A stretch of DNA of 64,000 nucleotides from Pseudomonadota bacterium (GTDB taxonomy: Bacteria; Pseudomonadota; Gammaproteobacteria; QQUJ01), in assembly GCA_008501635.1 (NCBI GenBank), contig QQUJ01000010.1:434001-498000 (forward strand). The letters are read 5' to 3'. The position numbers and the translations under genes were made by a program. The notes beneath the pieces are model-generated. The model saw only the letters and a program-made list of their open reading frames with translations, had not been told where the DNA came from and made no database searches. Positions 861 to 22,327 of this stretch are shown in pieces (the stretch's first letter is position 1; every line of letters begins with the position of its first letter).

Positions 861-2540
861 ATGGTGCCCGCGATATCTGATCGAGCCGAATCGGGCCGGA
901 GATTTACACCATTGCTTAAGTACATCCAGACACCCGCCCATGCGCTGCTGCATAGGGTGGAGGGCTTTTTTAACCTGCTGTTTGGCGAAAAAGCCAATCC
1001 TTTCCACTACCTGGGTGGTTTGACCATTTTCTTCTTCTGGGTGGTGCTGGTCAGCGGGATCTACGTCTTCATTTTCTTTGAAACCAACGTCTGGGGCGCA
1101 TACCAATCCGTCGAGCGGCTGACCCATGAGCAGTGGTACATCGGCGGTGTTATGCGCAGCTTGCATCGTTATGCCTCGGATGCCGCGATCATAACCCTGG
1201 CCCTGCACATCCTGGGTGAGTTTTCCAAGGATCGGCACCGGGGCTTCCGCTGGTTTTCCTGGTTTACCGGCATCCCCTTGCTGTGGATGGTCTTTCCCCT
1301 GGGTATTACCGGGTATTGGCTGGTGTGGGATCAATTGGGTCAGTACGTGGCTATCGCCAGTTCGGAGCTTATGGACTGGCTCCCAATATTTACTGATCCT
1401 ATGGCACGAAATTTCCTCACGGAAGATGCGCTGAGCGACCGGTTTTTCACGCTTATGGCATTTATCCATCTGATCGGATTACCGATATTTCTGATTTTTG
1501 GAGTGTGGTTTCACCTGCTGCGCATCAGTCGTCCCAAGATCAATCCACCGCGCAAACTGGCGCTGGGTAGTATGGCGGCTTTGCTGGTCCTTTCGTTTGT
1601 CGCGCCCGCCACGAGTCAAGGCCCCGCGGATCTGTCACGCGTAGCCACTAACCTGGAGTTTGATTGGTTTTATCTTCTGGCCTACCCGCTGTTGGATAGT
1701 GGGTCACCCGCCCTGCTGTGGGGTGTATTGTTTGGGGTCAGCGTCTTTTTCTCGGTATTGCCCTGGTTGCCCCCGCTGCGCCAGCTTCCGACGGCCAAGG
1801 TCGATCTGGATCACTGCAACGGCTGCGCACGCTGTTTTGCCGATTGCCCGTTCGGCGCTATTACCATGGTGCCGCGCAGCGATGGTCACGCCTCGCATAC
1901 CCAGGAGGCGACCGTCGATGCCTCTTTGTGTGCGAGTTGCGGCATCTGCGCTGGTGCCTGCCCCACGGCCATGCCTTTCCGCCGCGATGAGGCGCTGCCG
2001 ACCGGAATCGACATGCCTGGCTTTACGATTCATGACCTCAGAGAGGTCGGCAACACCGCGCTTGCCAACCTGGATAGTCCGGTCAAGCTGCTGGTGTACG
2101 GGTGCAATCACGCCATCGATGTGGCGAGTCTCGATCTGCCCAATGTGGTGGCGATTGGTCTTCCGTGTACCGGCAATGTGCCGCCATCGTTCGTTGACTA
2201 CGCCTTACACAAGGAGAGCGCGGACGGTGTACTGCTGACCGGATGCCGACCGGGAGACTGTCAGTACCGCCTGGGCAACACTTGGGTGGAAGAACGGTTT
2301 GCCGGCCGGCGGGAACCCCGTTTGCGCGAGCGCGTAGATACCCGACAGGTCAAGGTTTTCTGGGCCGGTCGCGGCGATCGCAAGGCGTTGGTGCGCGAAA
2401 TCGAGTCGTTTGTCGCGGATCTTAAGACGCTCAAGGCGCTGGACAGCGATCAAGATACCAGTGACGCGACCCCGTCGTCGCAAGCGCCTATCGGACTTAG
2501 TGCGGCGCGGGCGTCGATGCCGGAGTCCAGTCATGAATAA
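861..2540 (+). CDS. Cytochrome b / 2x[4Fe-4S] ferredoxin / MvhD-type iron-sulfur fusion protein
   Basis: 559 residues with three parts. Residues about 1-300 are a cytochrome b/b6-type membrane domain with helix pairs carrying bis-heme ligand spacing: H102/H116 and H203/H218. Residues 319-370 hold two [4Fe-4S] motifs (C319-x2-C-x2-C-x3-C-P and C357-x2-C-x2-C-x3-C-P). Residues about 408-520 resemble the MvhD/FrhD hydrogenase iron-sulfur subunit, with Cys at 415, 436, 462 and 467 (YGCNHA, LPCTG, TGCRPGDC). Such MvhD domains usually relay electrons to heterodisulfide-reductase-type flavoproteins. Here the domain is joined to a quinone-cytochrome-like membrane module, suggesting a membrane electron conduit for a cytoplasmic low-potential donor. 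It overlaps the next gene by 8 bp and is preceded by a perfect DNR/FNR box. Domain identities are clear; the physiological reaction is unknown. Confidence 0.85.
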   Translation: MVPAISDRAESGRRFTPLLKYIQTPAHALLHRVEGFFNLLFGEKANPFHYLGGLTIFFFWVVLVSGIYVFIFFETNVWGAYQSVERLTHEQWYIGGVMRSLHRYASDAAIITLALHILGEFSKDRHRGFRWFSWFTGIPLLWMVFPLGITGYWLVWDQLGQYVAIASSELMDWLPIFTDPMARNFLTEDALSDRFFTLMAFIHLIGLPIFLIFGVWFHLLRISRPKINPPRKLALGSMAALLVLSFVAPATSQGPADLSRVATNLEFDWFYLLAYPLLDSGSPALLWGVLFGVSVFFSVLPWLPPLRQLPTAKVDLDHCNGCARCFADCPFGAITMVPRSDGHASHTQEATVDASLCASCGICAGACPTAMPFRRDEALPTGIDMPGFTIHDLREVGNTALANLDSPVKLLVYGCNHAIDVASLDLPNVVAIGLPCTGNVPPSFVDYALHKESADGVLLTGCRPGDCQYRLGNTWVEERFAGRREPRLRERVDTRQVKVFWAGRGDRKALVREIESFVADLKTLKALDSDQDTSDATPSSQAPIGLSAARASMPESSHE

Positions 2541-3057
2541 GGTGCTGCGCTATCTCGGCCAGGCGCTCATGTACGCCCTGTTCATGGGGTTTGTCGGGTA
2601 CTTTGCGGTCTTGCCGACCTATTCGCCGCTGCAGGCCGATGAGGCGGCGGTGAGATACAGCATTGGCCACTACGGGCAACTCAAGGTCGAGTGCCGCCAG
2701 CGTACAGCGGAGGAACTGGCGAAGATGCCACCCAATATGCGGGCGGTCGACGACTGTGAGCGCGAAAGATCGCCGATCGATATCGAATTGCTGATCGACA
2801 ACAAGCTGATCTATAAAGAACATCTGCGCCCGACCGGTCTCTCCAGGGACGGCCGCTCCTACACCTATCACACGATCAAGATTCCACAGGGGACCCACCT
2901 TATCACGATACGGATGCGCGACAGCATTCATGAGCAGGGTTTCAACTACAACAAATCGGCCGAGGTGGAACTGCAGGCTGGTGAATTGTTGGCGATCGAC
3001 TTCAACAGCGAAGAGGGTTATTTTCGCTTCATCACACCCAAGAAACGTGACGGCTAG
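2533..3057 (+). CDS. Membrane-anchored extracytoplasmic protein of heme-copper operon
   Basis: 174 residues. The start is placed at the ATG at 2533, which overlaps the end of the upstream gene; the frame is open further upstream but would place the membrane helix internally. One N-terminal transmembrane helix (LMYALFMGFVGYFAVLP) is followed by a soluble domain of about 140 residues, probably periplasmic. Two cysteines (VECRQR and DDCERE) flank a conserved-looking PPNMRAVDD stretch and might form a disulfide or bind metal. The rest looks beta-rich. Size and topology recall FixH-like accessory subunits of cbb3 oxidases, but I do not recognise the family. Its position between the cytochrome b fusion and the heme-copper subunit suggests a structural or assembly subunit of the same complex. 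Confidence 0.75.
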   Translation: MNKVLRYLGQALMYALFMGFVGYFAVLPTYSPLQADEAAVRYSIGHYGQLKVECRQRTAEELAKMPPNMRAVDDCERERSPIDIELLIDNKLIYKEHLRPTGLSRDGRSYTYHTIKIPQGTHLITIRMRDSIHEQGFNYNKSAEVELQAGELLAIDFNSEEGYFRFITPKKRDG

Positions 3058-3125: not shown

Positions 3126-4505
3126 ATGACCCAGCAAGACTCCCACTACATTTTGCCTGTAAAAGGCGATATCACTTTGGCCCGAGGGTGGTTGTTTCTC
3201 GGTTTGCTGTCATTGGTGATCGCAGGATTGCTCACCGTCCTGGTGGTGTCGGCACGCGTCCCCGGACTCCAGGATCTGTTGCCCTTCGTTGGGCTTTTTC
3301 GTGCCGTGCTGGTGGTGCATGTCGACCTTACGGTGCTGGTGTGGTTTTCCGCCTTTGCGGGCCTTTTCTGGAGTCTTAACGTTCGTGGGTATTGCACTCT
3401 GTGCGGATGGGGTGCCTTGCTGCTGGCCCTGTTTGGCGCGCTATCGATGTCGGCGGCCCTGTTCGTCGGCAGCCCCGAACCGATAATGGCGAATTACATA
3501 CCGGTTCTCCGCAGTCCCATATTCATGGCCGGATTGTTGGCCTTTGCTGGCGGTTTCGCGATTCTGGTTCTGCGGGCGCTCTACTCCCTGGCGCGGGAGA
3601 GGGACTGGTCCGGCCGGGAGGGGGCGCTGCGGTTTGCGCTGTTTACCTCGGCCTTGTCCGGTCTGGCGGCATTGATTGTTTTCGCTCTGGCCTATGGCGA
3701 CCTGCCGGAATCGCTGGAGCCGAAAGCCTATTACGAACTGCTCTTTTGGGGCGGCGGTCATCTTATGCAGTTCGTCTACACCCAGTTGATGCTGGTTGCG
3801 TGGTTGTGGTTGGCCAGTGCCTCGGGTGCCTGGCCCGGCCTGGGTGCGCGAGCTGCCTGGTGGGTATTCGCGATCGGCGTGGCAGCCATTCTTCCAACAC
3901 CTTTTGTGCTGATTGGAAACGGCCCGGAAACGGCACTGTATCGGATCTTTTTCACTTATCAGATGCAGTACGGTGGGGGGATCGCAGCGCTCGTAATCGG
4001 TGCGGTGGTGCTGGCGGCGCTGTGGCGGGCGGATGCCCCCCATGAAAGCGCACGCGCCGAGCGCAGCACACTCTGGACGTCGTTACTGGTATTCGGTGCC
4101 GGGGGCGTGATCGGTTTCCTGATCTCGGGTAGCAATGTGACCATCCCTGCGCACTACCACGGCAGCATCGTGGGTGTGACGCTGGCTTTCATGGGCATGA
4201 CCTACCACTTGTTGCCCAAACTTGGCTATCGACCAGTTTCCCAAGGGCTTGCAGTATGGCAGTCGCGAATCTACTGCGGCGGCCAGTTGATGCATATCAC
4301 CGGACTGGCCTGGTCGGGTGGTTATGGGATTCAGCGCAAGACCGCTGGGGCTGCCCAGGGTCTCGATTCGCTGGAACGGATCGTCTCCATGGGCTTCATG
4401 GGACTCGGTGGATTCATTGCGATCATTGGCGGCATTCTTTTTCTGATCGTGGTCTTCAAATCCATTCTAGGGCGTCGAAGGAACGAGTTGGGCGTCGCAC
4501 CGTAA
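3126..4505 (+). CDS. Divergent heme-copper oxidase superfamily subunit I (NOR/cbb3-like)
   Basis: 459 residues with about twelve predicted transmembrane helices, the size of a NorB or short cbb3 catalytic subunit. Conserved heme ligands are visible: H65 in helix II (VVHVDLTVLVWF) for the low-spin heme and H343/H345 (PAHYHG) in helix X for the high- and low-spin hemes. H212 (WGGGHLMQF) occupies the helix VI position of the CuB/FeB ligand. The His-His pair expected in helix VII is absent: the region around residues 245-285 (ILPTPFVLIG, then FFTYQMQYGG) has no histidine. The enzyme therefore cannot have a standard His3 metal site. Anaerobic control and denitrification neighbours suggest NO or a related substrate. 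The true activity is unknown; a non-catalytic quinol or electron-transfer role is also possible. Confidence 0.85.
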   Translation: MTQQDSHYILPVKGDITLARGWLFLGLLSLVIAGLLTVLVVSARVPGLQDLLPFVGLFRAVLVVHVDLTVLVWFSAFAGLFWSLNVRGYCTLCGWGALLLALFGALSMSAALFVGSPEPIMANYIPVLRSPIFMAGLLAFAGGFAILVLRALYSLARERDWSGREGALRFALFTSALSGLAALIVFALAYGDLPESLEPKAYYELLFWGGGHLMQFVYTQLMLVAWLWLASASGAWPGLGARAAWWVFAIGVAAILPTPFVLIGNGPETALYRIFFTYQMQYGGGIAALVIGAVVLAALWRADAPHESARAERSTLWTSLLVFGAGGVIGFLISGSNVTIPAHYHGSIVGVTLAFMGMTYHLLPKLGYRPVSQGLAVWQSRIYCGGQLMHITGLAWSGGYGIQRKTAGAAQGLDSLERIVSMGFMGLGGFIAIIGGILFLIVVFKSILGRRRNELGVAP

Positions 4506-10623: not shown

Positions 10624-10637
10624 TTGACGCAGATCAA
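10624..10637. promoter_or_regulatory. DNR/FNR-type box of nirS
   Basis: TTGACGCAGATCAA matches TTGAT-N4-ATCAA at nine of ten defined positions. Its centre is about 112 bp before the nirS ATG, leaving a leader of about 70 nt if activation occurs from -41.5. The rest of the 458-bp interval 10285-10742 shows no gene or clear repeat. Regulation by the Dnr encoded at 21558-22244 is the natural inference. Confidence 0.7.
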
Positions 10638-10742: not shown

Positions 10743-12389
10743 ATGAAAAAAATGCAATTTGGTATCCCCGCCCTGACACTCGCGATGGGCATGGCAGTCG
10801 GCGCCGTTGGCACCAATGCCATGGCCGCGACGGCAGCGCAGCCGACCATGTCAGAGGCGGATTTCGAAGCGTCCAAACTGATTTACTTTCAGCAGTGTGC
10901 CGGCTGTCACGGCGTGCTGCGCAAGGGCGCGACCGGCAAGAACCTGGAGCCGAAAGAGACCCTGAAGCTGGGGCAGAAGCGTCTCGAGCGCATCATCTCC
11001 TTCGGCACCGAAGGCGGCATGAACAACTTCGACGGCATTCTGAGCAAGAAAGAGGTCGAGGATCTGGCGACCTATATCCAGATCGATCCGCCGATTCCGC
11101 CCGAGATGTCGCTGGCCGACATGAAGAAGCGCACCAAGGTTCACGTTGCTCTCAAGGACTATCCGACCAAGCCGCTGCATGGGCGCAATTGGGAAAACTT
11201 CTTCGTGGTCATCGAGCGTGATGTGGGCAAGGTGGCGGTCATCGATGGTGACAAGCATGAAGTCATTACCCACATTCCCACCGGGTATGCGGTCCACGTG
11301 CTGAAGGCGCTGGAACACAACAAGGTGGTCCATCCGGAGAACCCGAAGGACGTCGGTCGTTTCTGGTACACCATGGGACGTGACGGCAAGCTGACCAAGA
11401 TCGACCTCTGGCAGACCCCGGACAAGATGTTGGTAGCTGAAACCCAGATAGCCTATGACGCTCGCGACGTGGCGGTGTCGGGTGACGGCAAGTACGTGGT
11501 CGGTGGCGGTTATTGGCCGCCGCATTTCGTCATCGTCGACGCCAAGACCATGGACCCGCTGAAAGTGGTCTCGGCACGCGGCGTCAATATTGACGGCCAG
11601 TATGTGAACGAGTCCCGTGTGGCCGCCATCTACGACGCTCCGTTGACATCGAGCTGGCTGGTGAACATGAAGGAGCTGGGCCAGACCTGGCAGGTCGACT
11701 ACTCCGACATCGACAACCTGCGCATCGACAAGATCGACAACGCCAAGTTCCTGCATGACGGCTTCTTCGATCCGACCGGTCGCTACTTCCAGATCGCGGC
11801 CAATGCCTCGAACAAGATGGTGGTGATCGATTCCAAGACGCGCAAGCTGGAAGCCATGATCGATACCGACAAACGTCCGCACCCCGGTCCGGGCGCCAAC
11901 TGGAATGATCCCAATTGCGGTCCGGTGGGGGGGACGCCGCATCTTGGCGTAGGCAAACTCACGGTATGGGGCAACGATCCTGTCAACCACAAAGACAAGG
12001 CCTGGAAGATCTGCTACGAAACTCAGACCGATGGCCCTGGCCTGTTTGTCCGCACCCATCCGAAGAGCGACTACGTCTGGGTTGACCAGACACTGCATCC
12101 CGAGCCGGAAATCCAGCAGTCGGTCAAGGTTGTGGAAAAGAAGACCGGCAAGGTGGTCAAGACCATTCGTCTGACCACCACCGAGGGTTATGTCGCTGTT
12201 CACTTTGAATTCAATGCTGACGGCAGCGAGTTGTGGGCCTCGGTATGGAACCGCAAGGACAGCAAGACCGACAATGGTGAAATCGTGGTGTTCGACGCCA
12301 AGACCCTTGAGGAGAAGACGCGGATCAAGGGCCTGTTTGCACCCACCGGTAAGTTCAACGTGTACAACCGCAGTAATCACGTCACCTGA
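10743..12389 (+). CDS. nirS: Cytochrome cd1 nitrite reductase NirS
   Basis: 548 residues. NirS reduces nitrite to nitric oxide in the periplasm. A signal peptide (residues 1-29, ending TNAMAA) precedes a cytochrome c domain with C52-x-x-C55-H56. The rest is the eight-bladed d1-heme propeller: H185 (GYAVHVLK) fits the proximal d1 ligand, and H338 (KFLHDGF) and H400 (GGTPHLG) fit the catalytic histidine pair. The start follows GGGGGGAGCG. A DNR-type box lies upstream and a strong terminator directly downstream, so nirS appears to be a single-gene transcript. Confidence 0.98.
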   Translation: MKKMQFGIPALTLAMGMAVGAVGTNAMAATAAQPTMSEADFEASKLIYFQQCAGCHGVLRKGATGKNLEPKETLKLGQKRLERIISFGTEGGMNNFDGILSKKEVEDLATYIQIDPPIPPEMSLADMKKRTKVHVALKDYPTKPLHGRNWENFFVVIERDVGKVAVIDGDKHEVITHIPTGYAVHVLKALEHNKVVHPENPKDVGRFWYTMGRDGKLTKIDLWQTPDKMLVAETQIAYDARDVAVSGDGKYVVGGGYWPPHFVIVDAKTMDPLKVVSARGVNIDGQYVNESRVAAIYDAPLTSSWLVNMKELGQTWQVDYSDIDNLRIDKIDNAKFLHDGFFDPTGRYFQIAANASNKMVVIDSKTRKLEAMIDTDKRPHPGPGANWNDPNCGPVGGTPHLGVGKLTVWGNDPVNHKDKAWKICYETQTDGPGLFVRTHPKSDYVWVDQTLHPEPEIQQSVKVVEKKTGKVVKTIRLTTTEGYVAVHFEFNADGSELWASVWNRKDSKTDNGEIVVFDAKTLEEKTRIKGLFAPTGKFNVYNRSNHVT

Positions 12390-21557: not shown

Positions 21558-22244
21558 TCAGGCGCCAAAGCTGATCAGTTTGCAAACATCGGGGATGTGA
21601 ATGGTGCGGGCCCGTACGGTGACGAGACCCTCGTCCTGCAGGTGGTGCAGGACGCGTGAAAAGGTCTCGGGAGTCAGGTTGAGGCGCGAAGCGATCAGCG
21701 CCTTACTCGCCGACAATTCCAGGGTATAAGCGCCATGATCCTTGTCGCCGCCGATCTCATCGCGCAGCAGGTAACCGATCACGCGCTGCATGGAGGAGTG
21801 GAGAGTGATGTCCTCCACATCGTGCACGATGCGGTGCAGGCGCATCGCCAATCCCGAGAGCATAGCCAGGGCGAACTGCGGATCGGCCTCGACCTCGCGG
21901 AAAACCGCATCGCGGGGGATGAATATCAAGCGGCTCTCGCGCGTGGCTTGCGCATAGACCGGGGTGGGACGGCGCAGAAACATCACCGCCTCCGCGAAGC
22001 TCATGCCACTGGGGATGATTTCCAGAACCTTCTCGTTGCCGTCCTCGGTCAGGAAGGCGAGCTTGATCTGACCTTCAATCACGAAATAGAAGCCGTTGCT
22101 GGGGTCGCCTTTGTTGAACAGTATCGCGCCACGCTTGACGGTCAATTCACGGGATTCCGCAGCAATCACCGTAAGGTGACTGTCGGCGACTTCCTGGAAG
22201 AGGGGAACGGCGGCTAAGGCAGTTTTGACCGATTGGGTACTCAT
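21558..22244 (-). CDS. dnr: Crp/Fnr family regulator Dnr (NO-responsive)
   Basis: 228 residues: cyclic-nucleotide-binding-like sensor domain (about 1-140), dimer helix, and HTH (about 165-215). The N terminus lacks the cysteine cluster of Fnr, leaving only one Cys near the C terminus, so it is of the Dnr/NnrR class that senses NO through haem. The recognition helix contains LTPETFSRVL; the E-x-x-S-R pattern contacts TTGAT half sites, matching the boxes at 798, 10624, 14461 and 22314. It converges on nirN, and a perfect box lies 70 bp upstream of its own start, suggesting autoregulation. Confidence 0.9.
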   Translation of the reverse strand: MSTQSVKTALAAVPLFQEVADSHLTVIAAESRELTVKRGAILFNKGDPSNGFYFVIEGQIKLAFLTEDGNEKVLEIIPSGMSFAEAVMFLRRPTPVYAQATRESRLIFIPRDAVFREVEADPQFALAMLSGLAMRLHRIVHDVEDITLHSSMQRVIGYLLRDEIGGDKDHGAYTLELSASKALIASRLNLTPETFSRVLHHLQDEGLVTVRARTIHIPDVCKLISFGA

Positions 22245-22313: not shown

Positions 22314-22327
22314 TTGATCCTGATCAA
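22314..22327. promoter_or_regulatory. DNR/FNR-type box between dnr and hemerythrin gene
   Basis: TTGATCCTGATCAA fits TTGAT-N4-ATCAA perfectly. Seen from dnr (start 22244) the centre is about 76 bp upstream; from the hemerythrin gene (start 22508) it is about 187 bp upstream. The symmetric site could serve both divergent genes. Another half-site-like TGATCAA lies just left (about 22297). Confidence 0.75.

Follow-up and report, generated by a model that had tools for sequence, protein, structure and literature searches.

A heme-copper oxidase subunit I homologue with conserved haem ligands and no copper site, found beside genes for haem synthesis and oxidase assembly

At positions 3126-4505 (+) of the window, by which the whole stretch of 64,000 nucleotides that was analysed is meant, lies an intact open reading frame of 459 codons. 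Its product, here called P0001, is a homologue of heme-copper oxidase (HCO) subunit I without a copper site and with approximately 12 membrane helices. The gene is preceded in its operon, in this order, by genes for a CuA subunit, an sNOR-like HCO, haem O synthase, SCO, a cytochrome b-ferredoxin-FlpD fusion and a 174-aa protein, the first three of which are located just upstream of the window start. The SCO1/SenC gene (1-801, +; assigned by Pfam) also starts before the window, at L049:15851. An exact FNR/ANR/DNR-type box, TTGATCTGTATCAA, was located by motif matching between the SCO and cytochrome b genes (798-811, +). The fusion gene (861-2540, +) specifies 559 aa in which domain matches revealed a cytochrome b with His102, His116, His203 and His218, a two-cluster [4Fe-4S] ferredoxin and an FlpD/MvhD domain. 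It is related to ExtP and to parts of HdrA2 and represents an unusual route linking cytoplasmic electron carriers to the membrane. The 174-aa protein (2533-3057, +) is a conserved partner in sNOR-type operons that belongs to no Pfam family. It is modelled as one N-terminal membrane helix followed by a confident beta-sandwich (pLDDT 93), which has no PDB fold match at E ≤ 0.001 and thus gives no sign of a copper chaperone.

The sNOR-like neighbour, a label that is derived from gene order and sequence similarity, keeps all three metal histidines: helix VI reads GHSSQQ and helix VII contains HH. All 31 relatives bearing the motif have Gln where Tyr would be expected. A published table of active-site residues covers eNOR, sNOR, gNOR and CuANor and gives Asn for sNOR (PMC8756737). 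A norSY-senC-orf1 gene cluster occurs in ammonia oxidisers. Two genes of the CtaA family (361.9 and 127.9 bits) are located upstream of the operon on the opposite strand.

The preliminary description had placed the gene under anaerobic control and next to a denitrification region, and both statements are borne out. Apart from the exact box within the operon, 19 of 30 related operons have an FNR-like box with at most one mismatch ahead of their CuA gene, where 0.5 would be expected, and nirS genes and a cNOR were found. Two distinct cd1 nitrite reductase-like genes lie about 20 kb apart (window 10743-12389 and L049:5373-7175), the former accompanied by the FNR-like box TTGACGCAGATCAA at 10624-10637. 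A further exact FNR-type box (22314-22327) is present near the gene of a putative Crp/Fnr-family regulator (21558-22244, -). The source genome specifies six PF00115 proteins, namely an aa3-type and a cbb3 enzyme, a cNOR, the sNOR-like HCO, an unusual HCO of 523 aa, and P0001. The 523-aa protein (G000:C6:50015-51349; L005:1408-2979, -) has an HH pair and, at the fourth position past the His of helix VI, a Glu. Its helix X reads SGHTMTV, with Met in the column of the second His. Its PDB matches are weak (best E 6e-7), its gene adjoins one resembling a P-type metal ATPase, and it is possibly an unusual NO reductase.

P0001 barely exceeds the cut-off of the Pfam COX1 model (PF00115; 35.9 versus 34.8 bits), which is the sole Pfam family on the protein at E 0.001; no NnrS, SURF1 or signalling domain was detected and NCBIfam contains no model matching it. 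An AlphaFold model built from 37 sequences (pLDDT 83.3, pTM 0.89) was matched over its full length by subunits I of ba3, aa3, bo3, cbb3 and NOR enzymes in Foldseek (best match 3s8f_A, E 3e-7), while PDB sequence searches with P0001 and with a family profile gave no match. Pfam, model and fold search agree on a 12-helix HCO fold.

In a joint alignment of 43 members of the P0001 family with sNOR-like, A-type, cbb3 and cNOR sequences and the sixth HCO, taken from the source and related genomes, His65, His212, His343 and His345 fall in the ligand columns of helices II, VI and X, as had been proposed from the sequence. The low-spin haem is thus provided with a His pair (His65 in helix II, codon 3318-3320, +, and His345 in helix X) and the high-spin haem with His343 (His343-Tyr344-His345, codons 4152-4160, +). 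The helix VII HH column is filled in all 16 sNOR-like and all six A-type sequences, in cbb3, cNOR and the sixth HCO, and in none of the 43 family members. Val261-Leu262 (codons 3906-3911, +) occupy this site in P0001, which confirms the reported absence of the pair. The only ligand that the alignment leaves for a CuB or FeB is His212 of helix VI (codon 3759-3761, +), within the motif W-x-x-G-H-x-x-Q-F. The notion of an abnormal B site combined with intact haem ligands is therefore supported, and the loss of two of the three B-site ligands with retention of all haem ligands speaks for a protein that binds haem and carries out no HCO catalysis.

A family alignment of 104 relatives, 91 of type I and 13 of type II, extends these observations. 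His212, Gln215, His343, Tyr344, His345, Arg404 and Lys405 are invariant in all 104, and His65 is present in all 102 aligned rows. Arg404-Lys405 (codons 4335-4340, +) correspond to the Arg-Arg pair that in HCOs interacts with the haem propionates. None of the 104 sequences has the first helix VII His, and hence none has the pair as such. At the second position His occurs 26 times, Tyr 43 times and Phe 16 times, and all 26 members with His belong to the class-distant genome set. The earlier statement that residues 245-285 hold no histidine at all is thus true of P0001 itself and not of all its relatives. One relative (L055) carries HHH around residue 272, past the position of the pair. In helix VI, the residue at His +4, where catalytic enzymes have Glu or Tyr, is Phe in 95 of the 104 members (Phe216 in P0001).

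An initial genome scan yielded 42 relatives of P0001 among named records of beta- and gammaproteobacteria and Magnetococcales, and a second draw of 399 Pseudomonadota genomes, 58 of which have a relative, added further ones including the second subfamily (type II). Plasmid records contained no relative. The family is monophyletic (SH-like 0.91 in FastTree, UFBoot 93 in IQ-TREE) and shares a larger group with the ba3 and sNOR-like sequences (FastTree 1.0, UFBoot 92), apart from cNOR, A-type and cbb3. It is placed inside neither the sNOR nor the ba3 clade but forms a separate one beside both (UFBoot 93). As ba3 and sNOR-like sequences form no clade of their own in the IQ-TREE analysis, more than one candidate is left for the exact sister of the family. 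A separate clade that shares the loss of the pair and a conserved operon, envisaged as a sign of a new subfamily, is hence what the trees and loci reveal. The sequences make its descent from the heme-copper superfamily clear, and alignment, tree and model together establish the fold and show that the haem ligands are conserved and those of the metal missing. The literature consulted, a partial coverage with few subscription papers and no preprints, gives no account of a CtaA-linked HCO family without the helix VII pair, and as far as was found the family has apparently not been described before.

The gene neighbourhoods of the relatives differ between lineages. In the stretches fetched around 83 type I loci, CtaA is present in 48, CtaB in 41, SCO in 47 and DUF420 in 5. 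CtaA is adjacent (<400 bp) to the P0001 gene in 23 of these loci; 35 have no CtaA in the stretch fetched, some of the contigs being short. Tandems in which both genes overlap or abut were seen in four loci (L085, L086, L088 and L104), and family f91, a lineage outside the class of the window, has the P0001-CtaA tandem. In Magnetococcales (L038, L040), CtaA adjoins in the opposite orientation. Gammaproteobacteria (L012, L014) have a divergent sNOR cluster followed by hemerythrin-CtaA-171 aa-SCO-P0001. The hemerythrin-like gene opening this cluster (L012:4709-5188 and relatives) could specify an O2 or NO sensor or scavenger. A DUF420/CtaM gene lies beside P0001 in two loci (L090, L117). Two genomes (G252, G278) have two copies of P0001 each, one in a CtaA tandem; the second copy in G252 is part of an sNOR operon.

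These distributions bear on two explanations. P0001 might be an atypical NO reductase or NO-converting enzyme with a haem-only or two-ligand metal site, as was suggested in the preliminary description. The HCO fold, the conserved helix VI His, the denitrification surroundings, the FNR-type boxes and the 26 relatives that have the second helix VII His are in line with such a role. However, the first helix VII His is absent from every member, Phe mostly takes the place of the catalytic Tyr/Glu, and many carriers have P0001 beside haem A synthase without an sNOR-like match, while type II is found in a cytochrome c maturation context. As an intact HCO of that very kind is already specified by the operon and the family also occurs without it, the proposal is weak, and a new NO reductase is unlikely. 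Slightly less probable still is that P0001 senses NO/O2 by means of its haem or has a structural part in the sNOR-like complex. The FNR-type box and the sNOR linkage in beta- and some gammaproteobacteria would agree with this, but the f91 genomes carry P0001 without an sNOR-like match, no signalling domain was found by Pfam, and a structural role would not require both haem sites to be fully conserved.

In betaproteobacteria the order is CuA-sNOR-CtaB-SCO-cytb/FlpD-p174-P0001-cytb/2Fe-2S/FAD-NAD reductase, with a CtaA-like gene upstream and divergent from the sNOR operon. The cytochrome b/2Fe-2S/FAD/NAD(P)H-binding fusion directly 3' of P0001 (L020:9383-11299 and other betaproteobacterial loci) recalls a membrane-bound ferredoxin/ferredoxin reductase. 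Type II genes have ResB/CcsA as neighbours in 12 of 13 loci and, where captured, an 11-haem cytochrome c gene next to these. The order is undecahaem cytochrome-ResB-CcsA-P0001 relative, the latter with C-terminal TPR repeats in L091. This conserved operon, with a cytochrome c carrying 11 CXXCH motifs, was observed at L091:5310-11880 and in 11 other type II loci, all outside the class of the window.

P0001 may be an electron-transfer module, that is, a putative di-haem quinol- or cytochrome b-linked subunit which together with the cytochrome b fusions would feed electrons to the sNOR-like enzyme in the source operon and, in other lineages, to CtaA or the undecahaem cytochrome. The tight coupling of P0001 with two cytochrome b reductase fusions in betaproteobacteria, with overlaps of a few bases, the operon that type II shares with the 11-haem cytochrome c gene, and the two conserved haem sites speak for this possibility. 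It is a close rival, ranking close behind the interpretation favoured below, but the CtaA-tandem and Magnetococcales loci have no cytochrome b fusions near P0001, and the sNOR-like enzyme already has its own CuA subunit. Of the non-catalytic quinol module considered earlier, the non-catalytic part is upheld; the recurrent neighbours point more to haem synthesis and insertion than to the oxidation of quinol.

The location of type II beside ResB/CcsA and the 11-haem cytochrome c makes haem, not copper, the theme common to the various contexts. The neighbours suggest that the family does not itself consume gases but assists other enzymes by making, loading or reducing their haem. As the neighbours shared by these contexts are genes for haem synthesis, haem attachment and oxidase assembly, we favour, tentatively and with less than even confidence, the interpretation that P0001 is a copper-free di-haem paralogue acting as a haem-handling or haem-reducing partner in oxidase maturation. 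In this view, a paralogue of B-type/sNOR subunit I was stripped of its CuB/FeB site while two haem sites were kept, and the conserved ligands of P0001 predict that it binds two haems. The haem of the former active site would probably be bis-His ligated, by His343 with His212 as a possible sixth ligand, or otherwise inert, and O2 or NO would not be reduced for that reason. P0001 could take up, hold or reduce the specialised haem made by CtaB/CtaA and serve the maturation of a particular HCO, which in the source operon would be the sNOR-like enzyme a few genes upstream and in lineages without SURF1 an aa3-type oxidase. Cytoplasmic electrons might be supplied by the linked cytochrome b fusions, with ferredoxin/FlpD or, in betaproteobacteria, with the 2Fe-2S/FAD/NAD(P)H reductase. 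The role would be either haem loading or electron supply to haem A synthase. Against this stands that FNR control of the sNOR-type operon fits poorly with the need of haem A synthesis for O2, unless conditions are microaerobic.

The distribution of SURF1 was compared in the 399 Pseudomonadota genomes, 277 of which have CtaA and 219 SURF1. Among the CtaA-positive genomes, 51 have P0001 only, 216 SURF1 only, 3 both and 7 neither, a near-exclusion with a Fisher value of 4e-44 that ignores shared ancestry and is not readable as a probability. The P0001-positive genomes belong mostly to a few deep lineages, by which the exclusion is confounded. The COX11 control gave nearly the same split against P0001, so that the exclusion does not relate to haem insertion in particular. 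What it singles out are lineages that have another oxidase-assembly set, rather than a replacement in haem insertion as such; the source genome has both SURF1 and COX11. A more far-reaching proposal is doubtful, namely that a copper-free HCO branch became a factor that delivers or reduces haem. Type I would then serve haem A/O oxidases and stand in for SURF1 in at least one lineage besides Magnetococcia, and type II would serve a multihaem cytochrome c whose maturation depends on ResB/CcsA.

The reactions that define the heme-copper superfamily depend on its B-site metal. A clade with both haem sites and no such metal would, if this reading is true, constitute a natural split of haem binding from catalysis. 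The insertion of haem A into subunit I is a stated open question (PMC9145763), for which the CtaA links and the near-exclusion of SURF1 make P0001 a concrete candidate, also in bacteria without SURF1. When terminal oxidases or NO reductases are surveyed, COX1-family genes of the P0001 type should be left out of the count.

Among known systems, P0001 resembles the sNOR/B-type (ba3) subunits in its full-length homology (hhalign probability 99.85 against the sNOR-like family of the operon; 25% identity), in the histidines of helices II, VI and X, and in the helix VI Gln three residues after the His, as in GHSSQQ of the sNOR-like enzyme. It differs from these in lacking the HH pair, in having Phe instead of Gln or Tyr at the next position of helix VI, in being about 110 residues shorter than its sNOR-like neighbour and in having no evident CuA subunit of its own. 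With cNOR (NorB) it shares the HCO fold and the haem ligand columns but neither the HH pair nor the helix VI Glu, and it is separate from the NorB of its own genome in the tree. Assignment to cNOR/qNOR, which requires both this Glu (His +4) and HH, was rejected, the residues in P0001 being Phe216 and Val-Leu.

Likeness to SURF1 is confined to distribution, i.e., the oxidase biogenesis context and the near-exclusion in CtaA genomes; SURF1 itself is an unrelated protein that crosses the membrane twice and has a large domain outside the cytoplasm (PMC9145763). The occurrence of two P0001 copies in some genomes, one per system, echoes the oxidase-specific Surf1c/Surf1q pair of Paracoccus (PMC9145763). 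CtaM (DUF420) is, like P0001, a membrane protein linked to haem A oxidase genes, and the two are neighbours in the two loci mentioned above, although CtaM has four to five membrane segments and belongs to a different Pfam family. CtaM is needed for oxidase activity and is dispensable for the formation of haems a and a3 (PMC9145763).
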